From Bacteroidetes bacterium GWC2_46_850 (GTDB lineage: Bacteria > Bacteroidota > Bacteroidia > Bacteroidales > Dysgonomonadaceae), in contig MENQ01000005.1 in the NCBI GenBank assembly GCA_001768325.1, forward strand, positions 1-40,292: 40,292 nucleotides of DNA. The letters are read 5' to 3'. This document shows positions 1 through 12,775 of this stretch, in pieces. Position 1 is the first letter of the stretch. Every line of letters starts with the position of its first letter. The position numbers were made by a program, and so were the translations under genes. The notes beneath the pieces are model-generated. The model was given only the letters and a program-made list of their open reading frames with translations. It did no database searches and was not told the DNA's origin.

Positions 1-18
1 TGATCTTTCTTGATTCAT

Positions 19-60
19 AATGATAATTTATTGAAGTTATTACGCTTCAAAATTATCATT
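19..60. repeat. Perfect-arm hairpin at window start
   Basis: Bases 19-28 and 51-60 are perfect 10-bp inverted arms (AATGATAATT/AATTATCATT). An inner 6-bp stem (TTGAAG at 31-36, CTTCAA at 45-50) encloses an 8-base loop. It may be a bidirectional transcription terminator between cassettes, but neither strand has a clear long T tract. Its role is inferred only from shape. Confidence 0.5.
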
Positions 61-83
61 ATTCTAATTTACCGACAGGTTTA

Positions 84-214
84 GTTCAACGGTCGGCGGT
101 ATGGTTAGTTGCCGAATTCGAAGCACTTTCCTGTCAAGTTACAACTACTTTTGATACGAGCTGTGCCGCTCGAATACCCACTGCACCGGCAATTAACTAT
201 ACCGCTTGTTGGCA
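84..214 (-). repeat. attC-like imperfect hairpin site, copy B
   Basis: This 131-bp site has outer elements GTTCAAC (84-90) and GTTGGCA (208-214). Inside them are perfect inverted stems GCGGTAT (96-102)/ATACCGC (199-205) and TTGCCG (109-114)/CGGCAA (187-192), enclosing a loop of about 70 bases. The same stems, spacing and a shared TTCCTGTCAAG loop segment recur in the same orientation at 7990-8121. The plan resembles an integron attC site (R''-L''-loop-L'-R'). Read on the minus strand, the site would end with GTTGAAC. The attC reading is an inference; the repeat and its stems are directly visible. Confidence 0.6.
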
Positions 215-452
215 ACTGGTGTTCATTCATATCTGGCTGTTTGTCATTTATTTAGCTTTTTTTCTTGTCATTGTCAATATGCACCAACCTATCTTCAAAG
301 CACAAATTTATTTTGTTTTTTTGAGCGTGGGCAATCCTAAAACCGTCCTGAAAGGCGGTTACTCGGGCTGGGATTTGCAAGCTCTTTGACAAAGCTTTGG
401 ATTAAGCGTTGGCTTGTGGGGCTTTGGCAATGTGCTTGCAAATAGCGATGGC
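215..452. other. AT-rich intergenic stretch with short repeats
   Basis: No convincing gene is present. A run of T-rich sequence around 305-323 is nearly identical, in inverted orientation, to sequence around 7873-7891. A second repeat (374-442) lies before the end of the first DsrE gene. No clear promoter for the minus-strand operon is expected here because this is its 3' side. Confidence 0.4.
374..442. repeat. Dispersed 65-70 bp repeat, copy 1
   Basis: This segment is a direct, diverged copy of 7772-7836. The shared core reads CTCTTTG, one variable base, CAAAGCTTTGG, then AGCG, TGTGGGGCTTTG and CAATGTG. Each copy also has complementary ends (TTGCAAG...CTTGCAA here; ATTGCAC...GTGCAAT in the other), so each can fold into a long imperfect hairpin. 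The function is unknown; a non-coding element associated with the cassette sites is possible. Confidence 0.55.
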
Positions 453-773
453 TTAAAAGGTTACAGTCTTATCTGCCCATACAACCAAGTTTACACAATC
501 TATCATTGTCGAAATAGGACAAGCATCGGTTTCATTAAGTTGCCTTGATTTTAAACATGTTCCGCAAGCCAGTATTTCACCACCCACGTTTACAAATGCT
601 TTTAATTGCTCATCAACATTATATTTCTCATGGGTCAAGCCTTCACATTCAACAGCTTCGCCCATTAAAAATAGTTTTACTTCATGCCCTTGTTTTTTAG
701 CTGTTACTGCGAAACGAAAAGCATTCCATGCTTTTTCGATTTCTTTTGTTTCGAGAATAATTCCAATTTTCAT
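453..773 (-). CDS. DsrE-family sulfur-carrier-like protein (cytoplasmic)
   Basis: This 106-residue protein starts MKIGIILET and ends in a hydrophobic strand typical of the small DsrE/DsrF/TusD fold. The key motif is ACGTCLKSR at about residues 69-77, whose cysteine pair sits where DsrE-like proteins place a persulfide-carrying cysteine. No signal peptide is visible, so it is probably cytoplasmic. It is the last gene of a tightly spaced minus-strand operon (10-base gap after the CGGC-domain gene) that also encodes a cysteine desulfurase and a rhodanese. A role in accepting or relaying sulfane sulfur is likely. It closely parallels the exported paralogue at 1123-1545, including the CGTCL(K/Q)SR motif, so the operon seems to supply one inside and one outside version. 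The exact partner is unknown. Confidence 0.8.
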   Translation of the reverse strand: MKIGIILETKEIEKAWNAFRFAVTAKKQGHEVKLFLMGEAVECEGLTHEKYNVDEQLKAFVNVGGEILACGTCLKSRQLNETDACPISTMIDCVNLVVWADKTVTF

Positions 774-783
774 ACTATAAATA

Positions 784-1113
784 TTAATGTGTATAATCCA
801 AAATTTTTATTTCGCTTCCAACTTTTTTTACTACGGCATCTTTCATTTGTTGTGCATGGGGACATGGAAATCCAATAGGATTACCTTTAAATATGCAAGA
901 TGCAAATACAATAACCTCTGCACCTCTTTCTACCATTAATTTAGCTCGTGTAGCTGCTTTTTTACCGGGACAACCTCCACAGCTAACAAATCCTATAACT
1001 TCGGAAGCCCCTATTTCTTGAAAAGCTAATTTTCCTTCAGATGCTACTTTAAAATCAGTGTTGCCCGGACACATATCTTCGGTTTGTTGGCAACGAATAA
1101 TACCTACTTTCAT
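784..1113 (-). CDS. CGGC-domain protein
   Basis: This 109-residue cysteine-rich protein starts MKVGIIRCQQTEDMCPG. It has the signature SCGGCPGKKA at about residues 44-53 and further cysteines in FASCIFKGNP and FPCPHAQQ. This matches the CGGC domain family, whose function is not established; the many cysteines suggest metal or sulfur binding. It lies between the two DsrE-like genes with gaps of 9-10 bases, so co-transcription is very likely. In this context it may be an additional thiol or metal-dependent sulfur acceptor, but that is inference from neighbours only. Confidence 0.8.
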   Translation of the reverse strand: MKVGIIRCQQTEDMCPGNTDFKVASEGKLAFQEIGASEVIGFVSCGGCPGKKAATRAKLMVERGAEVIVFASCIFKGNPIGFPCPHAQQMKDAVVKKVGSEIKILDYTH

Positions 1114-1122
1114 ATCTATAAA

Positions 1123-1545
1123 TTAAAAAGTTATTACAATTTTGTTTTTACGAATCAAGTCGTACAAGTCTTTCATTGACGAGAATTTACAAACTTTTGG
1201 TTCGTTATTGTTGCGACTTTGCAAGCATGTGCCACACCCAAGAATTTTACCGCCGTTGTCTAATAATTGATTGACTTGTTCTTTAATATCGTTGTTCTGT
1301 TCTGCAAGTTTTTCGACTTCAACGCCTTTACCAAGAAGGAAAACACAAACGGTATCGCCTTCGCTTTTTGAAAAATTAGCTAAACGCAAGGCATTCCAGA
1401 CTGTTTCAGAATCGTTCGAGTAAATAATAATTCCAATCGAAGTAGATGTATGCTTTTCAGTTTGATTCAGAAAATTCTGGCTGAAAGCAGGAGTTTGAAG
1501 TAAAAACAATAAAATTGTTGCAAATGATAAAATAATATGCTTCAT
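1123..1545 (-). CDS. Exported DsrE-family protein
   Basis: The 140-residue protein begins with a signal peptide (MKHIILSFATILLFLLQTPAFSQ, cleavage expected after about residue 22; no lipobox cysteine). A DsrE-like domain follows with motifs VWNALRLANFSKSEGD and GCGTCLQSRNNN. The CGTCLQSR motif matches CGTCLKSR in the cytoplasmic paralogue at 453-773. The predicted location is the periplasm, which is unusual for DsrE proteins that hand sulfur to cytoplasmic partners. The gene is 11 bases downstream of the cysteine desulfurase gene. It may bind sulfane sulfur outside the cytoplasm; the partner could be the membrane polyferredoxin or the exporter encoded upstream, but nothing in the sequence proves this. 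Confidence 0.8.
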   Translation of the reverse strand: MKHIILSFATILLFLLQTPAFSQNFLNQTEKHTSTSIGIIIYSNDSETVWNALRLANFSKSEGDTVCVFLLGKGVEVEKLAEQNNDIKEQVNQLLDNGGKILGCGTCLQSRNNNEPKVCKFSSMKDLYDLIRKNKIVITF

Positions 1546-1556
1546 GATAGATTTTG

Positions 1557-2693
1557 TTAATGGTTTAATTTTAATATAGTTTTTGATATAATTTCTATTG
1601 TACTGTCTATTTCATCGCTCGTGGTATATTTCCCTGTTGAAATGCGCACCGTACCTGCGGCTGTTTTAATATTGATATTCATTGCTTTTAGAACGGATGA
1701 AATTTCAATAGAATCGGCATGACAGGCAGAACCAGTAGAAATACAAATATCTTTACTGATAACAGAAGCAAGTGTATGGGCATCAACCTTATCAAATGCA
1801 ACGCTTAGTGTATTTGGAAGGCATTTTTGTAAATTGACATTTACTTTTACTTGTTCGCCAAGATTCTTTTTCAAACCATTCAATAAACTATCACGCATTG
1901 AAAGCATGTTTTGGCTGTTTTTGTCAAAATCACGCTTTGCAATTTCACAAGCCTTGCCCAATGCAACTATATGGATGACGTTTTCTGTTCCCGGACGTAT
2001 GCCTTTTTCCTGATTTGCCCCAAACATAATGTTTTGAATTTCCACACCATTCTTTACGTATAATGCCCCGATGCCTTTGGGTGCGTAAAGTTTATGTCCT
2101 GCAATGGTTAATAAATCAACCCCCAGTTTTGAAACATCGGTTTCAATTTTACCTACCGATTGTGCAGCGTCTGTGTGAAAAATTACTTTGTGCTTTTTTG
2201 CAATTGCTGCAATTTCGCTGATGGGCTGAATGGTGCCTACTTCGTTATTGGCGTGCATAATGGTTATCAATGAAGTATCGGGGCGAATGGCATTTTCAAC
2301 ATCTTGCGGATTCACGCTACCAAATTTATCAACAGGAATATATGTTATCTCATATCCTTGGGTTTCCAAATGTCTGCAAACTTCAATTATAGCGGGGTGT
2401 TCGATTGCTGATGTGATAATATGTTTTCCTTGCTTTCCTTTCAGAACGCCCCAAATTGCAAGGTTATTGGATTCTGTTGCACAGGATGTAAACAGTATTT
2501 CGTCGGGGTTTGCGTTAATTAAATCGGCAACCTGATTACGGGCAAGCCTAATAGCATCTTTATTAAACCTGCCAATAGTGTATGAACTTGAAGGATTACC
2601 AAAATGAGAATCAATAAATTGCTTCATTTCCTGTGCTACCTCCCTATCAATGGGCGTAGTGGCGTTATAGTCGAGATAAATAGGAATTTCCAT
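1557..2693 (-). CDS. Cysteine desulfurase, NifS/IscS class
   Basis: This 378-residue PLP enzyme of aminotransferase class V should convert cysteine to alanine while loading sulfur on its own cysteine as a persulfide. Diagnostic motifs are the start YLDYNATTPID, ATESNN, HANNEVGTIQPI, HTDAAQSVGK, the PLP-lysine motif AGHKLYAPKG at about residue 200, and the catalytic cysteine loop STGSACHAD at about residue 325. The family is usually near 380-400 residues, so it is full length. It sits 6 bases after the methyltransferase gene and just before two DsrE-like genes, with no IscU or SUF genes nearby. That argues for a specialised sulfur-donor role in the operon rather than housekeeping Fe-S assembly. 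Confidence 0.93.
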   Translation of the reverse strand: MEIPIYLDYNATTPIDREVAQEMKQFIDSHFGNPSSSYTIGRFNKDAIRLARNQVADLINANPDEILFTSCATESNNLAIWGVLKGKQGKHIITSAIEHPAIIEVCRHLETQGYEITYIPVDKFGSVNPQDVENAIRPDTSLITIMHANNEVGTIQPISEIAAIAKKHKVIFHTDAAQSVGKIETDVSKLGVDLLTIAGHKLYAPKGIGALYVKNGVEIQNIMFGANQEKGIRPGTENVIHIVALGKACEIAKRDFDKNSQNMLSMRDSLLNGLKKNLGEQVKVNVNLQKCLPNTLSVAFDKVDAHTLASVISKDICISTGSACHADSIEISSVLKAMNINIKTAAGTVRISTGKYTTSDEIDSTIEIISKTILKLNH

Positions 2694-2699
2694 GTCAGA

Positions 2700-3326
2700 T
2701 TATTTTAGTGCTTCTATTGCTACAAAACTGCCCTTGTCATGCAAAGGGACTGGTTTTTCAATTTTATTTTGATTCATTTCAATGAGCGTCTGGCACGTTC
2801 TGAAACCTCCAAAGCCGCTAGTTTTAAGTTGATTGATTGTTTCATCAACGGCATGAAATTTTGCAGATTTATATACTTCGCTGTCTTTCATTGCCATGTA
2901 CTTTTTTGCTACTTCGCCATCTTTGTGTAATGTTCCCACAATGAGTTTACCCCCTTTCCGAATGATTCTGAATATTTCATGATATGTTTTCTGAATATCA
3001 TTAACAAATGGGTCAACAGCTACCATAATTACAAAATCGAAACTTTCGTCAGCAAATTCCAAATTTTCGGCTATGCCAATTTTTACTTCAATTCCTCGTT
3101 CTCTTGCAATTTCCGCCATTTGTTCCGATGGTTCAACACCTTGTTTAATACCAAGTTCAGAGGCAAATCTACCTGTACCTACACCTATTTCAATACCTTC
3201 GCCGTACTTTGGCATAAAATATTTAACAGCCTCTAATTCTGAAAAGAAAATACTTTCATTGCTATCAAACCATTGGTCGTACTCTTTTGCAACGGTATTA
3301 AAAGGATTGTTTTTTACAATTTCCAT
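2700..3326 (-). CDS. SAM-dependent class I methyltransferase
   Basis: From ATG at 3326 the protein has about 208 residues. I prefer this start (MEIVKNNPFNTVAKEYDQWF) to the upstream GTG at 3365 because the latter overlaps the preceding gene, whereas 3326 lies 10 bases past that gene's stop. Motif I VEIGVGTGRFASELG, the acidic VEPSEQM strand, and motifs DFVIMVAVDPFV and GGKLIVGTL mark a Rossmann methyltransferase of the Methyltransf_11 type. The substrate is unknown; in a sulfur-handling operon it could methylate sulfide, a thiol or a metalloid, but no residue decides this. It is located between the small membrane protein and cysteine desulfurase genes, all in one operon. Confidence 0.85.
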   Translation of the reverse strand: MEIVKNNPFNTVAKEYDQWFDSNESIFFSELEAVKYFMPKYGEGIEIGVGTGRFASELGIKQGVEPSEQMAEIARERGIEVKIGIAENLEFADESFDFVIMVAVDPFVNDIQKTYHEIFRIIRKGGKLIVGTLHKDGEVAKKYMAMKDSEVYKSAKFHAVDETINQLKTSGFGGFRTCQTLIEMNQNKIEKPVPLHDKGSFVAIEALK

Positions 3327-3336
3327 TTTCTGTTCT

Positions 3337-3864
3337 TTAATGCACTCCAAATCCAAGAAAAGCACTTGCTATTAATACAATGATTGCAAATTTTAAACAA
3401 AACTCACACAGTCTCTTTCTGCGAGCCCGTAACTGGAAAAACAACTTTTCCTGTTCTTCTTTTGGTTGTTCGTTCTCTGTAAATGTTGCAAAAAGTTTAT
3501 TAATAAGTGGATTGTATTTGAAGAATATCAATATCATTATTGCGACCATTCCAAAAACCGCAACTAATTTGATTGCAAGTGCAGAACCCGAAACAATGGA
3601 CATTTCACGAAAAGCCCCGTGAAAATAATAATGATTAAAGGGTATACCCATACCTGTTACAAAGAGAGTAATTATAAACGCAATACAATAGGGGGCATTT
3701 CCCTGTAACGTATCTTCCACCACCTTATCGAGTTTATAGGATAATTTTGCTCCGTATTGGCTGCGATTTAATACTAAATTTCTGTTATAAAATGGAGCGG
3801 CAGCACAACCAACAAGAGCAATATTGTGTAATGCCAGTAAAATTGAATGAATTAAGTCTTCCAT
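3337..3864 (-). CDS. Small integral membrane protein, unknown function
   Basis: I do not recognise a named family with certainty. The 175-residue protein has about four hydrophobic segments: near residues 7-24, 60-80 (IAFIITLFVTGMGIP), 95-115 (AIKLVAVFGMVAIMILIFF) and 155-172 (FAIIVLIASAFLGFGVH). A charged loop (ENEQPKEEQEKLFFQLRARRKRL) precedes the last one. Histidines in LHNIALVGCAAAPFYNR and FNHYYFHGAF could bind heme or metal. It lies 11 bases after the ArsR-rhodanese gene and 10 bases before the methyltransferase start, so it belongs to the sulfur operon. A transport or membrane redox role is possible but unproven. Confidence 0.7.
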   Translation of the reverse strand: MEDLIHSILLALHNIALVGCAAAPFYNRNLVLNRSQYGAKLSYKLDKVVEDTLQGNAPYCIAFIITLFVTGMGIPFNHYYFHGAFREMSIVSGSALAIKLVAVFGMVAIMILIFFKYNPLINKLFATFTENEQPKEEQEKLFFQLRARRKRLCEFCLKFAIIVLIASAFLGFGVH

Positions 3865-3875
3865 GAGATTTGAAT

Positions 3876-4535
3876 TTATTGGTTAATTTCTAATTGCTTT
3901 ACTTTCCATTCTGGATATCCTTCATCTAACCGCCTGACATGATAACCTTTTTCATTTAAAAGCTTAACAGCTTCGTCGGCTAGTACACAAAAGGGACCGC
4001 GACAATAGGCAATTATTTCCTTGTCTAATGGAATGCCTTTTAGTTGTGTCATTAATTCGTTCATTGGAACTGAAATTGCTCCGGTTATATGTCCAAATTC
4101 AAACTCAATAGCTGGTCGCACATCGAGCAACAAAACATCTTCATTGCCAATCATTGTTTCAAGTTCATCGAGATTTACTGCATTTAGCGCTTTATTATCT
4201 TCCCGTTGGCGGTTCATAATTTTTTCCAACTCAGCAATTTCGTGTATCGCATATTTTGTAATTTGTTGGTAAAGCGATAAAAACTCGTTATTTACCAATG
4301 AATAATAAACGTATTGCTTTTCTTTTCTCGATTTTACAATATTGTTGTTCTTTAATACCTGTAAGTGCTGCGAAGCATTGGCAAAGTTCAAATTGGTGGT
4401 TTGGACAATTCCCTCTACACTTTTTTCGCCTTGCGACAACATTTCGATAATTTCGAGCCGAAAAGGGTTCGAAAGAGCTTTTAATAGCTTTGAAAGCCCA
4501 TCGTACATTGCATCTTTAAATTCTCTTCCTTTCAT
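3876..4535 (-). CDS. ArsR-family repressor fused to a rhodanese domain
   Basis: The 219-residue protein has an N-terminal winged helix of ArsR type (residues about 10-95: LLKALSNPFRLEIIEMLS, NFANASQHLQVLKNNNIV, KEKQYVYYSL). A linker and a C-terminal rhodanese domain follow (about 120-215: LLLDVRPAIEFEFGHITGAISVPM, active-site loop AYCRGPFC). The first Cys of CRGPFC is the expected persulfide cysteine, and a second lies four residues on. The fusion suggests a regulator that senses sulfane sulfur through its own rhodanese cysteine. It heads a seven-gene tightly spaced operon. A TATATTTG -7 motif (minus strand, 4555-4562) and a palindrome at 4578-4599 lie upstream, which fits autoregulation. Confidence 0.9.
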   Translation of the reverse strand: MKGREFKDAMYDGLSKLLKALSNPFRLEIIEMLSQGEKSVEGIVQTTNLNFANASQHLQVLKNNNIVKSRKEKQYVYYSLVNNEFLSLYQQITKYAIHEIAELEKIMNRQREDNKALNAVNLDELETMIGNEDVLLLDVRPAIEFEFGHITGAISVPMNELMTQLKGIPLDKEIIAYCRGPFCVLADEAVKLLNEKGYHVRRLDEGYPEWKVKQLEINQ

Positions 4536-4554
4536 AGATAAAAGTTTTATGATG

Positions 4555-4599
4555 CAAATATAAAGTGATTATTCTATTATTCAATAGATTTATTGAATA
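4555..4599 (-). promoter_or_regulatory. Promoter and candidate operator of the ArsR-rhodanese operon
   Basis: On the minus strand a TATATTTG motif (4555-4562) matches the Bacteroidota -7 element and lies about 20 bases before the ArsR start codon. Upstream, 9-bp inverted arms TATTCAATA (4578-4586) and TATTGAATA (4591-4599), separated by GATT, cover the expected -33 region. AT-rich palindromes of this kind are typical ArsR binding sites. Autorepression is inferred. Confidence 0.6.
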
Positions 4600-4625
4600 T
4601 ATTATAAAAATAGTAATAAAACTTG

Positions 4626-6032
4626 TTAAAACCACCTCCATACCATCAACATAATCAGAAAAATACCTCCGTAAATTATTGGTATCAGATAGTACGATTT
4701 TGATGACCGTTCTATCCCACTCCTCAGATTTAAACGGTTTACAACCTTAATACTTAACCAAATGCCAATAATCATAAACCCGACTAAAAGCAACGAAACC
4801 AATGTATTTATCCAAACGGGATTCTGTTGAAGTGTAATTTGTCCGTCTATTATCTGTTGGGCGGTAGCAATGCCAGTAAAATCATCAGAAAGATGCTCGA
4901 AATATGGGATTCTTGATGTAGATTTCAAGATTGATTTACCAATGTGGGCTGCTGCAATAATAGGAATAAAAGCAATTCCGTAATTGAGCAAATAGTCTTT
5001 GAACTTGATTGTTAACCCTGCAAGGCGTGTGAATAAATAGGGTAACAACCAAACAATGAATGGTAAGACTGCGAAGATTATAGTTCCTTTCAAAATGCCT
5101 GACAGGAATTTGCTTTCGATTGCCAAAGGTTTTATAATCAAATCGGGAAGAAATGAAAGATACGCATCGGTTACGTTCCATTCCGACCAAATTTCGGAAA
5201 TAACAAAACCTGAAACTATCAATACGAAAACCATTTCCGCCATTCTTAGCGGTTTTAACTGAAATAAATCGTTGGCAAATCCGATGTTCTGAAATCGTGG
5301 GTTTGGTCGTTCGGAGTTGGGGTTCGATTGATATTTTGAACAGGTTTTAAGGCAACCAGCACATAAAATGCAATCGGCATTATCCGAAATATTGGCAGGA
5401 TATAAATCGACACCACAGCTTTTATAGTTTAGGTTGTATTGATATTTTTTGTGAATACAGGATTTGTCTTTACAAGTATCGCAAATGCTTTTGTCTTTTA
5501 CCCTCCAACCGAAAAATGAAAGTCGTGAATATAAACCCAACAAATAACCTACAGGGCAAACGTATCGACAAAAGGTATTTTTTTCGTAAATGCTTCCTAT
5601 TATGATTGAAACGCCTACAATGGATAATAGATAAATTGCCATAAAGAAAGGGTTGCGATGGATTGCAAAACCTTGTATTCCAATAAACAGAATGATAATA
5701 TAAAAAACGGTTATTGCCCAGCCTGAAATTAACAATGAAGGTCTTTTACGTTTAAGACCGATTTTGGAAAAGAAAGTGGTAATCAATTCAACAGGGCAAA
5801 CCATGCACCATACACGCCCGAAAAATATCGCCCCTATCACAATGGCTGGCCACCAATACGACCAAACAATTAAATTACCAAGGTTTGTATTACGAAGTTG
5901 TTTGAGAAAAGCGGCATCGGTGGAATATGCCATTAAACCCGTTACGATTAATACGATGTAAGCAATTAGTGAGACATATTTCAACGAAACGGGGAAATAC
6001 CATCTTTGAAGCAAAATATTAAGTTTTTTCAT
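4626..6032 (-). CDS. Membrane polyferredoxin (NapH/NosR/CcoG-like 4Fe-4S protein)
   Basis: The 468-residue protein has several transmembrane helices. Two membrane-flanking CxxxCP motifs typical of NapH/NosR-type proteins are present (VWCMVCPVEL near residue 77 and CRYVCPVGYL near 155). Two cysteine clusters for 4Fe-4S binding follow (CDTCKDKSC near 185; CILCAGCLKTC near 220). A second membrane part with four or so helices ends the chain (FVLIVSGFVISEIW, IIFAVLPFIVWLLPYLF, LVSLLLVGFMIIGIWL). Such proteins pass electrons between the quinone pool and extracytoplasmic or cytoplasmic partners. It lies 13 bases after the TauE/SafE gene. A role in a reductive or oxidative sulfur step is plausible from context; the partner enzyme is not in the window. 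Confidence 0.85.
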   Translation of the reverse strand: MKKLNILLQRWYFPVSLKYVSLIAYIVLIVTGLMAYSTDAAFLKQLRNTNLGNLIVWSYWWPAIVIGAIFFGRVWCMVCPVELITTFFSKIGLKRKRPSLLISGWAITVFYIIILFIGIQGFAIHRNPFFMAIYLLSIVGVSIIIGSIYEKNTFCRYVCPVGYLLGLYSRLSFFGWRVKDKSICDTCKDKSCIHKKYQYNLNYKSCGVDLYPANISDNADCILCAGCLKTCSKYQSNPNSERPNPRFQNIGFANDLFQLKPLRMAEMVFVLIVSGFVISEIWSEWNVTDAYLSFLPDLIIKPLAIESKFLSGILKGTIIFAVLPFIVWLLPYLFTRLAGLTIKFKDYLLNYGIAFIPIIAAAHIGKSILKSTSRIPYFEHLSDDFTGIATAQQIIDGQITLQQNPVWINTLVSLLLVGFMIIGIWLSIKVVNRLNLRSGIERSSKSYYLIPIIYGGIFLIMLMVWRWF

Positions 6033-6045
6033 CTTTCGGCAATTT

Positions 6046-6819
6046 TTAAATTAATCCAGTACCAAGGGCTATTGAAATTAAAATGAGCATTACCGCAACA
6101 ATGAGTTGGATACTCCTCAAAGTAACTTTTTTAAGCAATTTTTTGCCAAAATATGCCCCTGCAATTGCTGAAAGGGTTGCCGAAATTAAAAGTGTAAGAT
6201 TTTCGTGCAGGTTTGCTGATGTAAAACGTGAAGCATAAACCGAAAGCCTTGTAAAATCAACCAAACAGGCTATAACTACACCAGTGGCAATATATGCTTC
6301 TTTTGATAGTCCGCTCTTTATGAGAAATGCACTGCGAATTGCACCCTGGATGCCTGATAATCCGCCAAAGAAACCGCTAAGGATTCCGCCCAAAACTAAT
6401 TTATCTTTACCAAATTGAACCTTTTGAAAAGTGGGTGAAATTTCCAGTATCGAGAATACAATTAACAATAATGAAATAATGAGTTTTACAGGCGTAACTT
6501 CAAAAGACCTGCCCCAGAGTTCGTATTGTAAAAATGTTGGTAGAACTGTAATTTTCAATAACAACCATGCACCTGCAAATGAAGCTAAAATTGCAGGAAT
6601 ACCAAACCGCAACAAAACGGCTTTGTCAGTGTTTTTGCCTACTAATGCAATTTTGAAAAGGTTATTTGAAAAATGCACCACGCCAGTGAGTGCAATGGCA
6701 ATATCAATAGGGAAAAATATTGCAAAAACGGGAGCTAAGATTGTACCAAGCGCGAAACCCGAAAAGAACGTTAAAACGGCTGTAAAAAATGCCGCTAAAC
6801 AAATTATTACTATTTCCAT
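6046..6819 (-). CDS. TauE/SafE-family anion exporter
   Basis: This 257-residue protein is made of about seven to eight hydrophobic helices arranged in two similar halves, each opening with the glycine-rich signature of the family (TFFSGFALGTILAPVFAIFFP near residues 17-37; LGGILSGFFGGLSGIQGAIRSAFL near 142-165). The length fits TauE/SafE (sulfite exporter) proteins, which move sulfite, sulfoacetate or related anions. With the adjacent ArsR-rhodanese and cysteine desulfurase genes this suggests removal of sulfite or thiosulfate from the cell. It probably starts its own two-gene transcript with the polyferredoxin: a minus-strand TATTTTTG motif (6846-6853) lies 27 bases upstream. Confidence 0.88.
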   Translation of the reverse strand: MEIVIICLAAFFTAVLTFFSGFALGTILAPVFAIFFPIDIAIALTGVVHFSNNLFKIALVGKNTDKAVLLRFGIPAILASFAGAWLLLKITVLPTFLQYELWGRSFEVTPVKLIISLLLIVFSILEISPTFQKVQFGKDKLVLGGILSGFFGGLSGIQGAIRSAFLIKSGLSKEAYIATGVVIACLVDFTRLSVYASRFTSANLHENLTLLISATLSAIAGAYFGKKLLKKVTLRSIQLIVAVMLILISIALGTGLI

Positions 6820-6845
6820 ACACGCATACTTTTAAATTTATATTG

Positions 6846-6853
6846 CAAAAATA
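6846..6853 (-). promoter_or_regulatory. -7 promoter motif for the exporter/polyferredoxin genes
   Basis: TATTTTTG on the minus strand matches the Bacteroidota -7 consensus TAnnTTTG and is suitably placed upstream of the exporter start at 6819. No clear TTG -33 element is seen. Confidence 0.45.
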
Positions 6854-6901
6854 GGATGTATGGTTGCCTTTGGCGTGGTAGGTTTAAATGTTAAAATGGT
6901 A

Positions 6902-7732
6902 TTATTGAAAATGTTTATCCCTGAATTGTATTGGAGTAATTTTCTCGTGCTTTTTAAAGAATTTAACAAAGTTTGAGGCATCGGTAAATGAAAGGATTTC
7001 AGCAATTTCGTTAATGGTATTGTCGGTATGCAATATGTATCTTTTGGCTTCAAGTAATAGTTGATTTGTGATTATTTCGCTGGCACTTTTTCTCGTTTGT
7101 TTACGGCAAATTGTATTCAGGTTTTGAGGCGTTATATTAAGCAAGTCGGCAAATTCATTGACTTTGTGTAGCCGTGGACATTCTTTAACCAATAACTGTA
7201 CAAACTTTTCATATACTGATTGTGGCAATGATTTATTTTGGGGGTTGTCTTCTTTAATTTGCAACAGCTTTCCGAATAAGGCTTTGAGCAATCCGTGGAT
7301 AATTTCCTTTGAATATTGTGTATTGAGTTGAAATTCGTTAAAAATCTCTTCCAAAAAATGAATTGGGAATTTGTCGGGTTGGATTTTTAATCTTGTTGCA
7401 TCAGTCAGTTTTCGGACTAAGTCAATTAACGTTTTTTCATTAATCGCATTAAATTCATTGTCATTGAAAAGAATTACAAATCCTTTTGGAATTGAGGTAA
7501 ACTGCCAATAATGAAGTTGTCCAGGATTTAGAAAATAAAAATCGGGGCTTGAAACCATATATTTCTCCGATTCAATACAATGAAAACCTTCTCCCTGTGA
7601 TAGAAATATCAGTTCGTAATACTCGTCATGTTTGTGAGGTTTGGTTTTCTTAATCTGTTCTTTAAACCGTGAAACTTTAAAAGTCAAGCCTTCATCAAGT
7701 TTATTTTTTATGTCTATCTTTCTGTCATTCAT
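6902..7732 (-). CDS. AraC-family transcriptional regulator
   Basis: The 276-residue protein has an N-terminal cupin-like sensor domain (KPHKHDEYYELIFLSQGEGFHCIESEKY, residues about 33-60; NPGQLHYWQF). The C-terminal double helix-turn-helix of AraC/XylS proteins (about 180-275) includes VNEFADLLNITPQNLNTICRK and TINEIAEILSFTDASNFVKFFKKHEKITPIQFR. It is the first gene of the sulfur block and probably controls the exporter and/or ArsR operon downstream. The -7 motif TAACTTTG (minus strand, 7737-7744) ends only four bases before the start codon, so the mRNA may have little or no leader. The ligand is unknown. Confidence 0.9.
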   Translation of the reverse strand: MNDRKIDIKNKLDEGLTFKVSRFKEQIKKTKPHKHDEYYELIFLSQGEGFHCIESEKYMVSSPDFYFLNPGQLHYWQFTSIPKGFVILFNDNEFNAINEKTLIDLVRKLTDATRLKIQPDKFPIHFLEEIFNEFQLNTQYSKEIIHGLLKALFGKLLQIKEDNPQNKSLPQSVYEKFVQLLVKECPRLHKVNEFADLLNITPQNLNTICRKQTRKSASEIITNQLLLEAKRYILHTDNTINEIAEILSFTDASNFVKFFKKHEKITPIQFRDKHFQ

Positions 7733-7736
7733 AGCA

Positions 7737-7744
7737 CAAAGTTA
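7737..7744 (-). promoter_or_regulatory. -7 motif directly before the AraC start codon
   Basis: TAACTTTG on the minus strand lies four bases upstream of the ATG at 7732-7730. If used, transcription would begin at or within a few bases of the start codon. A competing start codon further downstream cannot be excluded. Confidence 0.4.
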
Positions 7745-7771
7745 TCAAATTTGCAGTGGTGCGGAGGAAAA

Positions 7772-7836
7772 ATTGCACTCTTTGGCAAAGCTTTGGTTTT
7801 AGCGTGGGCTCGTGGGGCTTTGCCAATGTGTGCAAT
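7772..7836. repeat. Dispersed 65-70 bp repeat, copy 2
   Basis: This is the direct diverged copy of 374-442. Internal inverted parts CTTTGGCAAAGC and GCTTTGCCAA, and the complementary ends ATTGCAC/GTGCAAT, allow a long hairpin. It lies between the AraC gene and the attC-like site A, mirroring the placement of copy 1 next to site B. Confidence 0.55.
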
Positions 7837-7989
7837 GTGGGTGGGGTTTCCTTCTTCTTTTTTTGCCGGGGGAAGAAAAAAACAAAATAAATTTCCATCA
7901 AATTTGCACTGTCCTGTCAAAAAGCTAAATCCTTTCTATTTTCAATTTATCACTATCGTATCTGTCTGCTCGTCTGTCTTTTTACACTT
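7837..7989. other. Intergenic stretch, no gene seen
   Basis: It is AT-rich with poly-A/poly-T runs. A 15-base direct repeat with one mismatch (ATCAAATTTGCAgTG at 7744-7758, ATCAAATTTGCAcTG at 7897-7911) brackets the hairpin repeat above. No ORF with plausible coding character is evident. Confidence 0.4.
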
Positions 7990-8121
7990 GTTGCCAACGG
8001 TTGGCGGTATGAAAAGTTGCCGATTGCGGGCGATTTCCTGTCAAGATACACAAAAGTTGAAGCGAGCTACAACCCTTGAATAGCCTACTGTCCCGGCAAT
8101 TTTTTATACCGCGTGTTGAAC
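7990..8121 (-). repeat. attC-like imperfect hairpin site, copy A
   Basis: This 132-bp site has the outer elements GTTGCCAAC (7990-7998) and GTTGAAC (8115-8121). The inverted stems are GCGGTAT (8004-8010)/ATACCGC (8106-8112) and TTGCCG (8017-8022)/CGGCAA (8094-8099). The stems and part of the loop (TTCCTGTCAAG) are shared with 84-214 in the same orientation. Read on the minus strand it begins GTTCAAC and ends GTTGGCA. The end that borders the sulfur block (GTTGGCAAC on the minus strand) is complementary to the first arm of site B (GTTGCCAAC), as expected of an integron cassette boundary. Confidence 0.6.
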
Positions 8122-8177
8122 TAAACCCGCATCCGCGAGTAGCATTTGACAAAAGTACCTGATTCTTTGTATATTCG

Positions 8178-9125
8178 ATGATTTTTCACCACAAAAAATG
8201 TCCGAATATGAGAAAGAAATCAGGTTTTACTTTTGTCGAGCAGGCCATTGTGCTTGTTCCTGAGTTTGAAACGGTTGTCCACAAACTGGAACAACAAGTC
8301 ACGTTACGGGGGCAGAGTCGGAGTACCTTACAAAACTACATCCGCCGAATTGCCCTTTTTGTCATTCATTTTGGCAAACTTCCCGAGAAGATTGATCCAG
8401 AAGAGATCAATGAATACCTGGCCGCATTGGCGCGTGATCCCCGATCTCCCTCGCGAAGCAGTTTTAAGCATATGGTGTACGGGTTGCGCTATTATTATCG
8501 CCTGTTGGGTATGAACCGCGAAGCCATCGCTCTGCCTTCACTTAAAAAAGATTCAAAGCTGCCCGTGATACTGAACCGGCAAGAACTCAAAGAGTTGTTC
8601 GCGGCACCCACGCTGCTCAAACAACGGATCGTACTCACATTGATTTATTCGGCCGGATTGAGAGGACAGGAGGTAATTAACCTGAAGATCTCAGATATCG
8701 ACTTTGAGCGTAAAACCATCCATATCCGTCAGAGCAAGTACAAGAAAGATCGCGTTGTTCCATTGGCCGGCAGCATGGCCATTGGTTTAAAAAAGTACCT
8801 CAAAGCCGAAAACCCTCATCTCTGGTTGTTCAACGGTAAAGAACCTGACGGTCGATACAGCGTGCGCGGTCTCTCCTGGGTGATGCGTGAGAACCTCAAA
8901 AAGACATCCATCACAAAAGAGGTGAACCTGCATTCACTGCGGCACTCGTATGCCACCCACCTGCTTGAACAGGGGCTGAACATTGTTACCCTGAAAGAGT
9001 TGCTTGGCCATGCCGATATCACCACCACCATGATCTACCTTCATGTAGCTCAATGTCCCCTCATTAAACCACACAGTCCACTGGATTCCTTGTATAACTT
9101 CACTAAAAATGAGAACAAGGTTTGA
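8178..9125 (+). CDS. Tyrosine recombinase of the IS91-type element
   Basis: The 315-residue protein has an N-terminal SAM-like core-binding domain (about 30-115) and a complete C-terminal catalytic domain. The catalytic series is Arg in SAGLRGQE, Lys in QSKYKKDR, HSLRHSYATH, His in LLGHAD and the Tyr nucleophile in TTMIYLHV. It ends with SPLDSL, a tail similar to the NPLDNL of the recombinase at 11639-12775. The gene overlaps the transposase start by 17 bases, as in IS91 elements that carry an upstream recombinase ORF. I kept the ATG at 8178; the next ATG (8208) is an equally possible start. It may resolve or target the transposition product. Confidence 0.88.
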   Translation: MIFHHKKCPNMRKKSGFTFVEQAIVLVPEFETVVHKLEQQVTLRGQSRSTLQNYIRRIALFVIHFGKLPEKIDPEEINEYLAALARDPRSPSRSSFKHMVYGLRYYYRLLGMNREAIALPSLKKDSKLPVILNRQELKELFAAPTLLKQRIVLTLIYSAGLRGQEVINLKISDIDFERKTIHIRQSKYKKDRVVPLAGSMAIGLKKYLKAENPHLWLFNGKEPDGRYSVRGLSWVMRENLKKTSITKEVNLHSLRHSYATHLLEQGLNIVTLKELLGHADITTTMIYLHVAQCPLIKPHSPLDSLYNFTKNENKV

Positions 9126-10281
9126 ACTGGCCGATGTGGTTCATCGGTTTGCTCCTTCACTGCATGACCGCGGAAAGCTTACTCCCCTTCAAGAAAAGGT
9201 GTTTGCTAAAATTGCACTTTGTAGAACCGCCGCCCTTGGCGGACACGAGGAGGCATGTGACAACTGCGGCACGATCCGTTATAGCTATAACAGTTGTGGC
9301 GACAGGCATTGTCCCAAATGCCAGGCAGCCAGACAAGCCTTCTGGGTTGACGAGCTGGTGCAAGGCACACTGCCCGTGAGGCACTATCATATTGTTTTCA
9401 CTGTGCCCGACCATTTGAATGTCCTTTGTCTGCATAATGGAAGGATGTTCTACAACCTGCTTTTTTCAGCCGTGTGGCACACCCTGAACAGCTTTGGATA
9501 CTCGCATTATGGTGTGGAAACCGGAGCAATAGCCGTGCTTCACACATGGGGGCAGAACCTCTCACTACATCCGCATATCCATTGTATCGTCCCGGCTGCC
9601 GGATACTCCCTTGATGGCCGATGGAAAAATATCGGTCATGGAGGGAAGTTCCTTTATCCTGTTCGTCAGTTGAGCAGTGCGTTTAAAGCCAGGTTCCTGG
9701 ACAGCCTCAAACGTGCTTTGCGTAAACAAAACAAGTTGGCGTTCTTCAATGACCAGATTCAGCGTGCATATGGCACTCCCTGGGTGGTTCATTGTGAGCC
9801 CTCGATGGCAAGTGTCGAACATGTGGTGAGATACCTGGGGCAATATACCCATCGGGTCGCCATCACTAACCAGCGTATCGTGAATGTCTCTGATGAAAAA
9901 GTGACCTTCATTGCCAAAGATTACCGACAGGGAGCGGCTAAAAAGTACATCACTCTCGGTGGTGTGGAGTTCCTGCGCAGATTTGCCCAGCACATACTCC
10001 CACGCAGATTTGTAAAGATCCGACGTTACGGTATCTACAACCACACGGTGAAACGGAATCTGGGACTCAGGTTCAGGGTAGAAGATGAATCCGAAGGCAA
10101 TAACAAATCAAAATCCCGGAAAACGATTGAATCGAACATTGATCGTTTCGTAAGACTTACCGGCATCAATCCTTGCCATTGTCCGGTGTGTAAAACGGGT
10201 CAGATGATTAGAATCAGAAAACTTCCACCGATACGTTCTCCACCGGAAACTATCTGTGAACAGACTCATCCCCAACTTTAA
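9109..10281 (+). CDS. IS91-family (HUH, Y2) transposase
   Basis: This 390-residue rolling-circle transposase has an N-terminal zinc ribbon (CDNCGTIRYSYNSCGDRHCPKCQ, residues about 50-72). The HUH nuclease motif is HPHIHCIVP at about 155-163 and the tyrosine region is YLGQYTHRVAITNQRI at about 243-258. Near the C terminus is a second cysteine cluster (CHCPVCKTG). The length is normal and no frameshift is visible, so it is probably functional. It starts inside the recombinase gene end, suggesting translational coupling. Confidence 0.93.
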   Translation: MRTRFELADVVHRFAPSLHDRGKLTPLQEKVFAKIALCRTAALGGHEEACDNCGTIRYSYNSCGDRHCPKCQAARQAFWVDELVQGTLPVRHYHIVFTVPDHLNVLCLHNGRMFYNLLFSAVWHTLNSFGYSHYGVETGAIAVLHTWGQNLSLHPHIHCIVPAAGYSLDGRWKNIGHGGKFLYPVRQLSSAFKARFLDSLKRALRKQNKLAFFNDQIQRAYGTPWVVHCEPSMASVEHVVRYLGQYTHRVAITNQRIVNVSDEKVTFIAKDYRQGAAKKYITLGGVEFLRRFAQHILPRRFVKIRRYGIYNHTVKRNLGLRFRVEDESEGNNKSKSRKTIESNIDRFVRLTGINPCHCPVCKTGQMIRIRKLPPIRSPPETICEQTHPQL

Positions 10282-10565
10282 CTATCAGACCTGAATGCGC
10301 CTAAAGGTGCACAGGGCAGGGTATGTCATCTTGTTAACAATAAGCGATCACAGAACCTTCTATTAATCCTGATTGATCCGAAAAGCCTATACCGTAAAGC
10401 ACAAAAACCTGCAAAATGTCAAAGATCGCTTGTTTATTTTACTGTCAGAAAGTATAAAAACCTTCGTTAAGTACATAGCACTTGATATCGGTGGGTGTAG
10501 TTCAACACCGACTCATCGCTGGGTCGTGCCGACCGCTCAGAGTCCTATTTATTAGCGGGTCGTTG
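10282..10565. other. IS right end and cassette junction, non-coding
   Basis: This stretch contains the post-transposase hairpin and the probable IS end near 10499. It also holds GTTCAAC (10500-10506) within a 5-bp stem GGTGT/ACACC. A longer imperfect hairpin follows (GACTC 10510-10514 with GAGTC 10540-10544, and inner GGTCG 10522-10526 with CGACC 10530-10534). Next comes TTAGCGGGTCGTTG (10552-10565), which is the inverted counterpart of CAATGCCCGCTAA at 11471-11483. The part from 10500 on may be a short attC-like site for the NmrA cassette. Confidence 0.45.
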
Positions 10566-11426
10566 TTATTTTCCCAATTGTTGTTTAATATAGTTTTCAA
10601 AGTCAGTTTTTAAGGTTATTGTACTGTTTGGATATTCTGGTGAAGTCAAACCGTCAACAACTGCTTTTGTCATATCGCACAAATTGTCTGCAGTATTGTT
10701 TGTAAAGCCAACTGATAATAAAGTTTCTTTCCATTTGTCACTTGCTATTGATTGCGTGAAAACATCTTTTTTGAATACCGTTGAAAATATCTTAGCAATG
10801 TCAAGCGAACTATATTTCGTTGCCCCCACTAATTCGTAAACTGTAGTTTTTGGCTGTCCTAATGGTTTAGCAATAACATCAGCAATAAAGTCTGCCAAGT
10901 CAAGAGGGGAATGCATTTCAACTTTTAGGTCCTCAGGAAAAAATGTCGGAAGTACGCCATACTGTTCTATTGTTGATAAGTATCCCAGCCAATTACTAAA
11001 ATAATATGAAGGTCGTATGATAATTTTTTCTATGTTAAAATCGTCAAACTGTTTTTCCAATAGCTGGGACATTAAAATGTTTCCTGTCTTACCCTCAATG
11101 TGAGCACCAATGCAAGACAAAATAACTATTCTCTGTATTTTGTTTTCTTCAACTGCTTTCTTGTAATTTTCAATTATATTTTTAGTGTCCTTAATTATGT
11201 CATTAGAACTCGGATTTTCAGGTGTCAAAAGAAATGCAGTTGTTCCACCTTTAAAAGCGTTTACAACTTGGTCTAAATTAAACAAGTCTGCGTGGCGTAC
11301 TTTAAAATTTTCATCTTTTACCTTTTCAGGGTTTCGTACAACGGCTATCGCAGGAATTCCTTTGTCTAAAAGTCTTTTTGTCAAATGAGAGCCTATTTGT
11401 CCTGATGCTCCTACAATTATGTTCAT
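10566..11426 (-). CDS. NmrA-like NAD(P)-binding oxidoreductase
   Basis: This 286-residue Rossmann protein of the atypical SDR class starts MNIIVGASGQIGSHLTKRLLDKG, with the dinucleotide-binding motif VGASGQIGSH at residues 5-14. Other features are FKVRHADLFNLDQVVNAFKGGTTAFLLTP, RIVILSCIGAH and IIRPSYYFSNWLG. The family includes quinone reductases and redox-sensing regulators such as NmrA and QorB-like proteins; the substrate here is unknown. It stands alone between the recombinase and the IS91 element. Its flanks carry inverted copies of CCCGCTAA (10552-10559 and 11476-11483), consistent with a single-gene cassette. No -7 promoter motif is visible directly upstream. Confidence 0.85.
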   Translation of the reverse strand: MNIIVGASGQIGSHLTKRLLDKGIPAIAVVRNPEKVKDENFKVRHADLFNLDQVVNAFKGGTTAFLLTPENPSSNDIIKDTKNIIENYKKAVEENKIQRIVILSCIGAHIEGKTGNILMSQLLEKQFDDFNIEKIIIRPSYYFSNWLGYLSTIEQYGVLPTFFPEDLKVEMHSPLDLADFIADVIAKPLGQPKTTVYELVGATKYSSLDIAKIFSTVFKKDVFTQSIASDKWKETLLSVGFTNNTADNLCDMTKAVVDGLTSPEYPNSTITLKTDFENYIKQQLGK

Positions 11427-11638
11427 ATTTTTCTCTTTTTAAGTTGTCAATTCTGTCGTGAGTCTTTTTACAATGCCCGCTAACGTTTGTGTATACGCAA
11501 TTGTATTGCGTATACATTTCATATATGCTTCCTGTTTGTTTTTATAATATTCATATTATAAGTACTTTATGAAAATTGTCTGTTTTTTATGCAATTGCGC
11601 ATACAGTACTTCAAAATTACTCTTCATAGTTTGTTTTC
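11427..11638. repeat. Recombination-site-like hairpin region beside the recombinase gene
   Basis: CAATGCCCGCTAAC (11471-11484) is followed by a perfect 12-bp inverted repeat (11490-11501 with 11505-11516, 3-base loop). The arm TATACGCAATTG (11492-11503) can alternatively pair with CAATTGCGCATA at 11592-11603, with one mismatch, enclosing about 88 bases. It lies between the recombinase stop and the first cassette gene, the expected place for an attI-like or first attC-like site in a reverse integron. The role is inferred. Confidence 0.45.
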
Positions 11639-12775
11639 TTATATATCAAGATTATCCAACGGGTTTTTTATCTGATCAAATCCTTTGGTTGTGATATGGG
11701 TATATATTTCAGTTGTTTTACTACTGGCGTGACCCAGTAGCTCCTGAATGTACCGTAAATCTGTACCTGATTCGAGCAGGTGCGTAGCAAACGAATGACG
11801 CAACGAATGTACGGAAATATTTTTACTGATACCAACTTTCTTCAGAGCATTTTTTAATATATTTTGAACACTTCGGGTTGAATACTGCCCTCCATTTGCC
11901 CCCTCAAACAACCATTCCCTAGGTTTGTATTCTTTCACATAGATTCGTAATGTCTCCAATGTTTTATTCCCAAGTAAAGTATATCTGTCTTTTTTCCCTT
12001 TTCCTTGTTCCACACGTATCTGCATTCTTTTGCTGTCGATATCCTTAATTCTCAGGTTAGTAAGCTCACTGATGCGCAAACCGGCCGAATAGATTGTCAT
12101 TATGATTGCTTTGTGTTTCAGGTTATTGATTGACTTCAAAATGGCTGCTACCTCTTCGGTGCTCAGCACTTCAGGCAATAACTTTTCTTTTCGTGGACGA
12201 TCGATCTGATAAACTTTGCGTGGTCCTCTCAATACTTTTTCATAATAAAACTTGATAGCATTGATGCTTTGGTTTTGATAGGATGTGGAGACATTTCGTT
12301 CGTTCACCAGGTATTGCAGAAAATCAACAATCATCGATTCAGAAATATTACGAATCTCTACCTCCTCATAATAATTGATGAACTCGCCAAATAAATCGGT
12401 GTATACCTTGATTGTATTATTACTGTACCGGAGTTCTTTCAGTTTGTCCACATAACTCTGCGGACAATTTCGATAGTGCCGGTGCTCTTTCTTTGATTTG
12501 CGGGGTTGCAACTTTAGTTTGTTTTCTTCGTGATATAAGAACTGAAGTTCATGTAGACTGGCTATTCGTTTTATTTCAGCCAGGTACTTCTCAGAAAAGG
12601 GTACCTCCCAACATTTTCTGACAGGATTCCAGGAGCATATTGGGATTTTCTTAAGTTTTCCTGTGATAGTCTGGTTATAGCTGAAGTACAGACGCAATGT
12701 TCTATGTGACACATTGATAACCAATATGTCTTTTTTTGTGTATTCAGGTGGCGCTATGGATCTGTTATCTTTCAA
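11639..12775 (-). CDS. Tyrosine recombinase (integron-integrase-like, IntI insertion absent)
   Basis: The 378-residue protein has an N-terminal extension of about 100 residues (rich in basic and aromatic residues, KSKKEHRHYRNCP). A core-binding domain follows (SYVDKLKELRYSNNTIKVYTD through YEKVLRGPRK) and then a full catalytic domain: Arg in SAGLRISEL, Lys in GKGKKDRYTLL, HSLRHSFATH, LLGHAS, and Tyr in TTEIYTHI. The stretch between the Lys and HSLRH is about 65-70 residues, shorter than in true IntI, so the IntI-specific insertion is missing. The C terminus ends NPLDNL, like IntI tails. It is transcribed toward the cassette-like blocks. A minus-strand TAAATTTG (12796-12803) lies upstream. Confidence 0.88.
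   Translation of the reverse strand: MKDNRSIAPPEYTKKDILVINVSHRTLRLYFSYNQTITGKLKKIPICSWNPVRKCWEVPFSEKYLAEIKRIASLHELQFLYHEENKLKLQPRKSKKEHRHYRNCPQSYVDKLKELRYSNNTIKVYTDLFGEFINYYEEVEIRNISESMIVDFLQYLVNERNVSTSYQNQSINAIKFYYEKVLRGPRKVYQIDRPRKEKLLPEVLSTEEVAAILKSINNLKHKAIIMTIYSAGLRISELTNLRIKDIDSKRMQIRVEQGKGKKDRYTLLGNKTLETLRIYVKEYKPREWLFEGANGGQYSTRSVQNILKNALKKVGISKNISVHSLRHSFATHLLESGTDLRYIQELLGHASSKTTEIYTHITTKGFDQIKNPLDNLDI

Follow-up and report, generated by a model that had tools for sequence, protein, structure and literature searches.

A chromosomal cassette array resembling a reverse integron, with a recombinase outside the IntI clade, in Bacteroidales

Introduction

Integrons hold genes as cassettes. 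The circular form of a cassette is cut at G^TT, so the stretch that follows GTT and the one just ahead of the next AAC come from a single cassette and are expected to complement each other; no such match is required between the ends of a single genomic site. Here we describe a stretch of 40,292 nucleotides from Bacteroidetes bacterium GWC2_46_850 (contig MENQ01000005.1; the window, below), in which a cassette array follows the gene of a XerA-like tyrosine recombinase. We think it very probable that this is a chromosomal cassette platform working like a reverse integron and run by a Bacteroidota recombinase family other than IntI. The window is the entire contig C5 of its own genome (3.75 Mb, 32 contigs), and the array is thus cut at base 1.

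Vibrio-type integrons, whose features are given here partly as general background, share with this locus an attI, tandem cassettes, structured AAC...GTT sites, a G^TT boundary, end complementarity within the cassette and strand asymmetry. Unlike them, the locus has no IntI, its array lies on the other side of the recombinase gene, and some cassettes of the family reach 5-12 kb, restriction-modification operons being the cargo of three. The Xer enzymes known so far act at dif, where they resolve dimers. XerA/XerC-like recombinases have the same catalytic core of ~270 amino acids without an insert, but the family described here is tied to cassette arrays and mostly carries an N-terminal extension; a role in dimer resolution is disfavored because of the array association. 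Groups of attC-like sites with no integrase nearby, as found here, are also known as CALIN.

The closest described layouts are those of Treponema denticola and the archaea (papers cited by PMC number are drawn on in part). In the reverse integron of T. denticola the integrase gene and attI are immediately followed by the first cassette (PMC7691350), and integrase and cassettes point in the same direction, as they do here except for one IS91-type gene pair. The Treponema integrase is called IntI in that account (PMC7691350), whereas the present enzyme lacks the IntI insert, belongs to another clade and is from a family mostly bearing an N-terminal extension with weak resemblance to HARP. Archaeal integrons also have attI immediately downstream of the integrase gene, but their enzymes contain the additional domain of IntI (PMC9668308). 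For attC, extrahelical bases in a T-N6-G arrangement are described (PMC3053210); the sites described below have instead an A opposite C mispair and a 2/5-nt spacer asymmetry. Single-strand recombination is held to have come with the I2 helix of IntI (PMC7790495). Bacteroidota, or the Bacteroidetes/Chlorobi group, are listed among carriers of IntI integrons (PMC8618304, PMC2426708), and the sections of the IntegronFinder 2.0 paper drawn on name one complete integron for Bacteroidetes proper, that of Salinibacter ruber (PMC9024848).

Results

Layout of the array

Reading the minus strand from the right, the window contains the recombinase gene, a palindrome, an NmrA-like gene, a short site, attC2, ten genes and attC3. 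The IS91-type pair, between attC1 and attC2, is on the plus strand and thus opposite to the array.

11639..12775, minus: XerA-like tyrosine recombinase, proposed cassette integrase
11482..11516, minus: attI-like site; palindrome 11516-11490 (12-bp arms, 3-nt loop), CAAAC, crossover GTT 11484-11482
10507..11484, minus: cassette 1; one gene, for an NmrA-like NAD(P)-binding protein (10566-11426)
10504..10559, minus: probable attC1, 56 nt, degenerate; R'' CCCGCTAAT, short GACTC/GAGTC stem, GTT 10506-10504
7999..10506, minus: cassette 2; starts GTTGAACTA and ends TAGTTCAAC before attC2; contains the IS91-type pair
7992..8121, minus: attC2; R'' GTTCAAC, R' GTTGGCA, GTT 7998-7996
91..7998, minus: cassette 3, ~7.9 kb; ten genes at 453-7732
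84..214, minus: attC3; R'' TGCCAAC, complementing the start of cassette 3, R' GTTGAAC, GTT 90-88
1..90, minus: start of cassette 4, GTTGAACTAAACC..., cut by the contig end
8178..9125, plus: XerA-like tyrosine recombinase of the IS91-type element, outside the array-recombinase clade
9109..10281, plus: IS91 family (Y2) transposase

The palindrome is followed by CAAACGTT, the two together spanning 11516-11482 (minus strand). Cassette 1 starts with AGCGGG, the complement of the CCCGCT in CCCGCT-AAT of attC1, and the attC2 stem reads GCGGTAT-A-AAAA-A-TTGCCG / CGGCAA-C-TTTT-C-ATACCGC. The original prediction had named two sites, and both are present (84-214 and 7992-8121, minus strand). They are direct repeats, their ends read AAC...GTT, and their stems are formed by GCGGTAT/ATACCGC and TTGCCG/CGGCAA; to these we add the probable attC1 (10559-10504) and the attI-like palindrome with its GTT (11516-11482), which it had not listed. 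Its statement that all cassette genes lie on the minus strand holds apart from the IS91-type pair (8178-10281, plus strand), and the long block that it put at 7.3 kb is real, though now redrawn as a single cassette of ~7.9 kb (7998 to 91) with ten genes.

The array recombinase

The window recombinase is 378 amino acids long from a TTG start in an open frame of 423. Its score against NF040815 (XerA) is 230 bits, with a cut-off of 220, and against TIGR02249 220 bits, which is below the curated cut-off of 265. The IntI insert (TIGR02249 positions 181-237) is missing, there being 25 residues where IntI4 has 68, and the catalytic core is ~270 amino acids without an insert. Preceding the SAM-like and catalytic domains, the N-terminal ~105 amino acids hold one HARP-like repeat, identified by eye and by alignment; Pfam returned no HARP match for the window recombinase itself and a match to HARP (PF07443) in only 3/25 family members. 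Most of its relatives have an N-terminal extension weakly resembling HARP. In the tree, all 26 array recombinases fall inside one 36-row Bacteroidota clade (support 98/96), and the IntI clade of nine rows is separate (100/100). Eight tree rows were labelled IntI, four because they score above the TIGR02249 cut-off and four by length or a visible insert.

The best PDB match by sequence and by fold is IntI4 (2a3v), and this, together with the 220 bits against TIGR02249 and the common direction of integrase and cassettes (PMC7691350), is what would be seen in a true reverse integron with an ordinary IntI and ordinary attC sites, as in T. denticola. We judge that explanation very improbable: the insert is missing, the TIGR02249 score is under 265 and the clade is apart from the eight IntI-labelled rows, and neither the Vibrio atypicus genome nor that of Pseudoalteromonas luteoviolacea has any match to the site model described below. 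Within a sample of 295 genomes from the window's order, moreover, IntI exceeds the TIGR02249 cut-off in only 5 genomes, whereas sites occur in 173. Canonical IntI was accordingly rejected, for lack of the insert and membership of another clade, just as the original prediction had supposed.

Two further recombinases were observed in passing. The window's own genome has a second, incomplete homologue (L030, C14:68007-70128) with 47% identity over 191 amino acids, at a contig end. The recombinase of L135, a Flavobacteriales metagenome-assembled genome (MAG), lies outside the array clade and groups with one from an Undinarchaeales MAG; it is followed by an attI-like palindrome and AACGTT, and no family site was found within 10 kb behind the gene.

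A family of structured sites

The two long sites of the window belong to one family of structured DNA, whose members, like attC, are imperfect inverted repeats with R'' (..AAC) and R' (GTT..) boxes and are better conserved in structure than in sequence. The original prediction had proposed folding both as single strands, and their folds, taken alone, do beat shuffles, though modestly (z -1.35 to -2.14, four folds); no Rfam family reached its gathering score at the window sites. A gapped pattern derived from the two sites matched 14 of the 295 sampled genomes, whereas the reversed control pattern matched none of the same 295. It is these homologues and the absence of reversed-pattern matches, and not single folds, that set the sites above chance. 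Four places with weak DNA matches were also inspected: those in contigs C26 and C7 of the window's genome were relevant, and two in C21 were not.

In a MAFFT alignment of 21 sites, not fitted to any model and leaving out a pair of AT-rich matches in G029, 8 of the 17 stem pairs have changed on both sides. A covariance model (R1) was built on aligned sites and the set enlarged to 104; in the alignment of these, which is fitted to a covariance model, 96.6% of cells are paired, all 17 pairs have two-sided compensatory changes, and covariation is 0.846 against 0.159 when shuffled and at most 0.119 with slid partners. The caution due to a model-fitted alignment is eased because the unfitted one points the same way.

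The stem contains a mispair, A opposite C, that is kept in 102/104 sites while neighboring pairs vary; a second stem position has A opposite C in 74/104. On the bottom strand the conserved mispair becomes T opposite G. The spacers are asymmetric, AAC being 2 nt from the stem in 92/104 sites and GTT 5 nt from it in 77/104, and under DNA parameters the bottom strand folds better in 79/104 (p 6.7e-10). The substrate is probably single-stranded and folded, with the bottom strand the likelier of the two. It could be argued that the recombinase acts in the manner of Xer on double-stranded sites, with the stem simply two binding sites in palindromic arrangement and single-stranded DNA playing no part, since its core is XerA-like and without the I2 helix held to enable single-strand recombination (PMC7790495), the stems are near-perfect palindromes, and some attI-like sites are palindromic too. 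A double-stranded site would not, of course, need a mispair, yet this one persists among covarying neighbors, and the unequal spacers likewise speak for a folded strand; we regard the double-stranded alternative as unlikely, but by no means negligible.

Linkage and orientation

Relatives of the recombinase were found by scanning genomes with the recombinase alignment, and the best 80 of 590 were kept as named loci. Because R1 was trained without these loci, it provides an independent test of orientation: all 32 matches with E <0.05, in 15 of the 80 loci, share the strand of the recombinase and are located 3' of it. R1 gave four further matches, every one of them on the opposite strand and with E from 0.56 to 4.1, and these were taken as noise. 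A second model, R2, whose training included sites from named loci, placed 53 of 54 matches 3' and co-oriented in 17 loci, the exception being L148. In 35 Bacteroidota named loci counted by hand, sites were found behind the gene in 17; where 2 kb or more of sequence was available there (18 loci), 13 have them. Among 19 recombinase loci, the contig stops less than 1 kb past the gene in 11, which would be expected if repeats follow it. In the single-contig genomes G214, G224 and G360 sites do follow the recombinase, and G224 has 15 full-length sites over ~53 kb, all 3' and on the recombinase strand.

The covariance model found sites in 173/295 genomes of the order, with at most 11 candidates scored per genome. 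In the genomes behind 50 of the 80 named loci, sites are present in 13 of 14 Bacteroidota (1 to 46 each) and in none of 36 from other phyla, V. atypicus and P. luteoviolacea included. The recombinase, at E 1e-60, was detected in 91/295 genomes of the order; sites occur in 80 of these 91 versus 93 of the other 204 (Fisher p 1.3e-12, ignoring kinship). The stem-pair search in related genomes that the original prediction suggested thus bore it out, in that arrays adjoin recombinase homologues and different DNA follows the attI-like site in different genomes, and so did the reverse orientation. Its refuting condition, that sites might prove unlinked to the recombinase, was examined and the outcome favors the prediction, with the limit that sites are present also in the 93 genomes lacking a strong recombinase match.

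Sites away from a recombinase are comparable to the attC clusters without integrase of known integrons. They could also mean that another enzyme, perhaps the XerA-like recombinase that accompanies the IS91 transposase, moves the cassettes in trans and that the array recombinase is a passenger, and the position of the IS91-type pair inside the window array would fit. Against this, sites stand behind the array recombinase in 15 named loci and in the single-contig G214, G224 and G360, and the array-linked recombinases form one clade, with the IS91 partner outside; we consider an enzyme in trans quite improbable, and the IS91 partner was rejected as the cassette recombinase because it is outside the array clade. 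It is probably the array recombinase itself that moves the cassettes.

The window's genome has a second, small cluster of two sites (L019, C7:124000-133000), with no recombinase among the nearby Phage_integrase matches. A cassette start there, GTTGGCAGCAAGTG at ~C7:128400, matches the first L019 site at 6/6 bases. No family site was detected ahead of this start, which looks like a cassette inserted outside any att site. Contig C26 of the same genome begins inside another family site (L018 1-101), possibly the far end of a broken array.

Cassette boundaries and exchange

A cassette of this family starts with G^TT and six bases, and its own site opens with their complement before AAC. Boundaries were tested on 91 matches (64/86 of one set and 27/36 from named loci), after exclusion of opposite-strand images of the palindromes and of truncated and weak matches; 84 passed AA[CT] and GTT, giving 45 neighbor pairs. 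Complementarity over the six bases is perfect in 28/45 pairs, compared with a mean of 1.58 and a maximum of 8 in 20,000 shuffles, and in the same-site control it is found in only 2/84. In the window, cassette 3 starts with GGCAAC and its own site begins with GTTGCC; the junctions of the preceding blocks agree too, though attC1 is degenerate.

A walker using only the complementarity rule and a stem test follows nine consecutive cassettes in Algibacter onchidii. Starting from attI-like sites picked by eye, it reached the first site in 9/11 loci, the window and G224 being the failures. In the single-contig G360, 8/8 steps from attI match; in G224 11/21 do, and short repeated cassettes there seem to be partly missed by the models. 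G224 (L201-L205) has, behind the recombinase and several sites, eight copies of a short element beginning GTTAATGGGTCAGTT or GTTATGGGTCAGTT, which is probably a repeated short cassette. The GTTAATGGGTCAG... element of this genome behaves as one; its reading as an insertion sequence was dropped, there being no transposase in the one copy inspected.

A palindrome with GTT stands behind the gene in 17/45 recombinase loci, where 0.5 is expected from shuffles, and the DNA after the attI-like site differs between genomes. The remaining loci have none by this test, and the definition of attI is accordingly looser than that of attC.

In the genus of G224, the recombinase (E 1e-100) was found in 6/25 genomes, G224 included. 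The congeneric species G224, G360 and G363 have collinear DNA upstream and recombinase genes 87-97% identical in DNA sequence. Between G360 and G363, 96/100 bases are identical before the GTT and 30/100 after it, near chance level; between G360 and G224 the values are 42/60 and 21/60. A break exactly at GTT points to cassettes gained at the attI-like point behind the gene, and cassette exchange between species, judged on these alignments, appears to take place. Loci without cassette gain or loss, which the original prediction had named as the outcome that would speak against it, are not what was seen, as sister species differ from the GTT onward. G002 and G219, of the same genus, showed no upstream synteny by blastn.

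These boundaries bear on whether the sites are simply mobile or structural repeats between genes (REP-like, or terminators) to which the recombinase is unrelated. That sites also occur away from the recombinase would agree with such repeats, but the strand and side of sites are fixed relative to it, complementarity is found within the cassette and absent within the site, and synteny breaks exactly at GTT. Jointly these refute the simple-repeat explanation, whose probability we put as close to nil.

Cassette contents

Cassettes walked in flavobacterial loci L128, L129 and L151 are mostly (13/16) of 0.5-1 kb, the size of ordinary integron cassettes; several in Bacteroidales are much larger, some 5-12 kb. 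The genes of cassette 3 encode DsrE, CGGC, DsrE, a NifS-like cysteine desulfurase, a methyltransferase, a protein of no assigned family, ArsR-rhodanese, NapH-like, TauE and AraC proteins, chiefly of sulfur or thiol metabolism, judging from family names. Its end regions (87-437 and ~7728-8031) are 88-92% identical to the ends of cassettes of ~7.5 to 12 kb in G029, G143 and G222 (L061 2508-14659; L063 5112-12762; L064 1781-11056). The interiors in the three genomes differ: one holds a type IIG system, one a type I restriction-modification system, and the third a further type I system together with PsyrT- and AriA-like genes. On both sides the conserved sequence breaks off shortly before the cargo genes begin, and each end in the window has a hairpin inside it (373-443, 7772-7836). 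A second, nested exchange of cargo between shared end modules is possible.

The IS91-type element with its own XerA-like recombinase fills an apparent cassette (8115-10506) in opposite orientation. Starts of the GAACTAAACC type were found also after the attI-like site of L111 and after attC3 of the window. Directly behind attC3, at the contig edge, is an AT-rich hairpin (window 1-76, fold z -4.97).

Discussion

We propose that the recombinase would insert circular cassettes at the attI-like site just behind its own gene, joining them at G^TT. Each cassette would bring its own attC-like site of ~130 nt, the AAC end of which complements the cassette's own start; excision and re-insertion would then rebuild the same boundaries, and arrays would grow in the direction of the gene. 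The N-terminal repeats may read the hairpin or the conserved mispair, in place of the I2 helix of IntI. As far as sequence comparison can tell, the platform has an attI, attC-like sites, cassettes and exchange, yet its recombinase comes out as IntI on neither of the two defining tests, and it would thus be the integron principle run by another recombinase clade.

Several observations weigh against a cassette platform as drawn here. The degenerate attC1 was not accepted by the strict stem test, although a 56-nt site in L119 was; 28/45 recombinase loci have no palindrome and GTT by the test that detected the others; 15/45 neighbor pairs match in four or fewer bases, of which three were later resolved by an intermediate site; and sites are found as well in 93/204 genomes that lack a strong match to the recombinase. 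These do not, in our view, outweigh the orientation, boundary and synteny results, and a platform working like a reverse integron remains the explanation that we favor.

We are more tentative, at slightly short of an even chance, about a broader reading: that integrons of a second kind, with an evolutionary origin of their own, are common across Bacteroidota, that in them HARP/XPB-DRD-like repeats at the N-terminus replace the I2 helix and read a folded, mispaired single strand, that they also move multi-kb operons, entire restriction-modification systems among them, and that the kind may have been overlooked so far because its recombinase is not an IntI. The part given to HARP-like repeats is made less likely by Pfam recognizing HARP in only 3/25 members. 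The original prediction allowed for an undescribed system, and we found no description of this platform in the literature searched, which takes in no preprints and few of the journals sold by subscription.

IntI is what defines an integron, and the same cassette logic in an enzyme without the I2 helix makes the claim that the helix is required a testable one: must I2 be present, or can a folded attC be recognized by some different means? The integron census also changes, from one named Bacteroidetes integron (in the part of PMC9024848 drawn on) to sites in 173/295 genomes sampled from one order and in 13/14 Bacteroidota genomes of the named loci, with as many as 46 in a genome. The platform would give a route for the spread of operons and defense systems within a phylum whose members abound in gut, marine and soil habitats.

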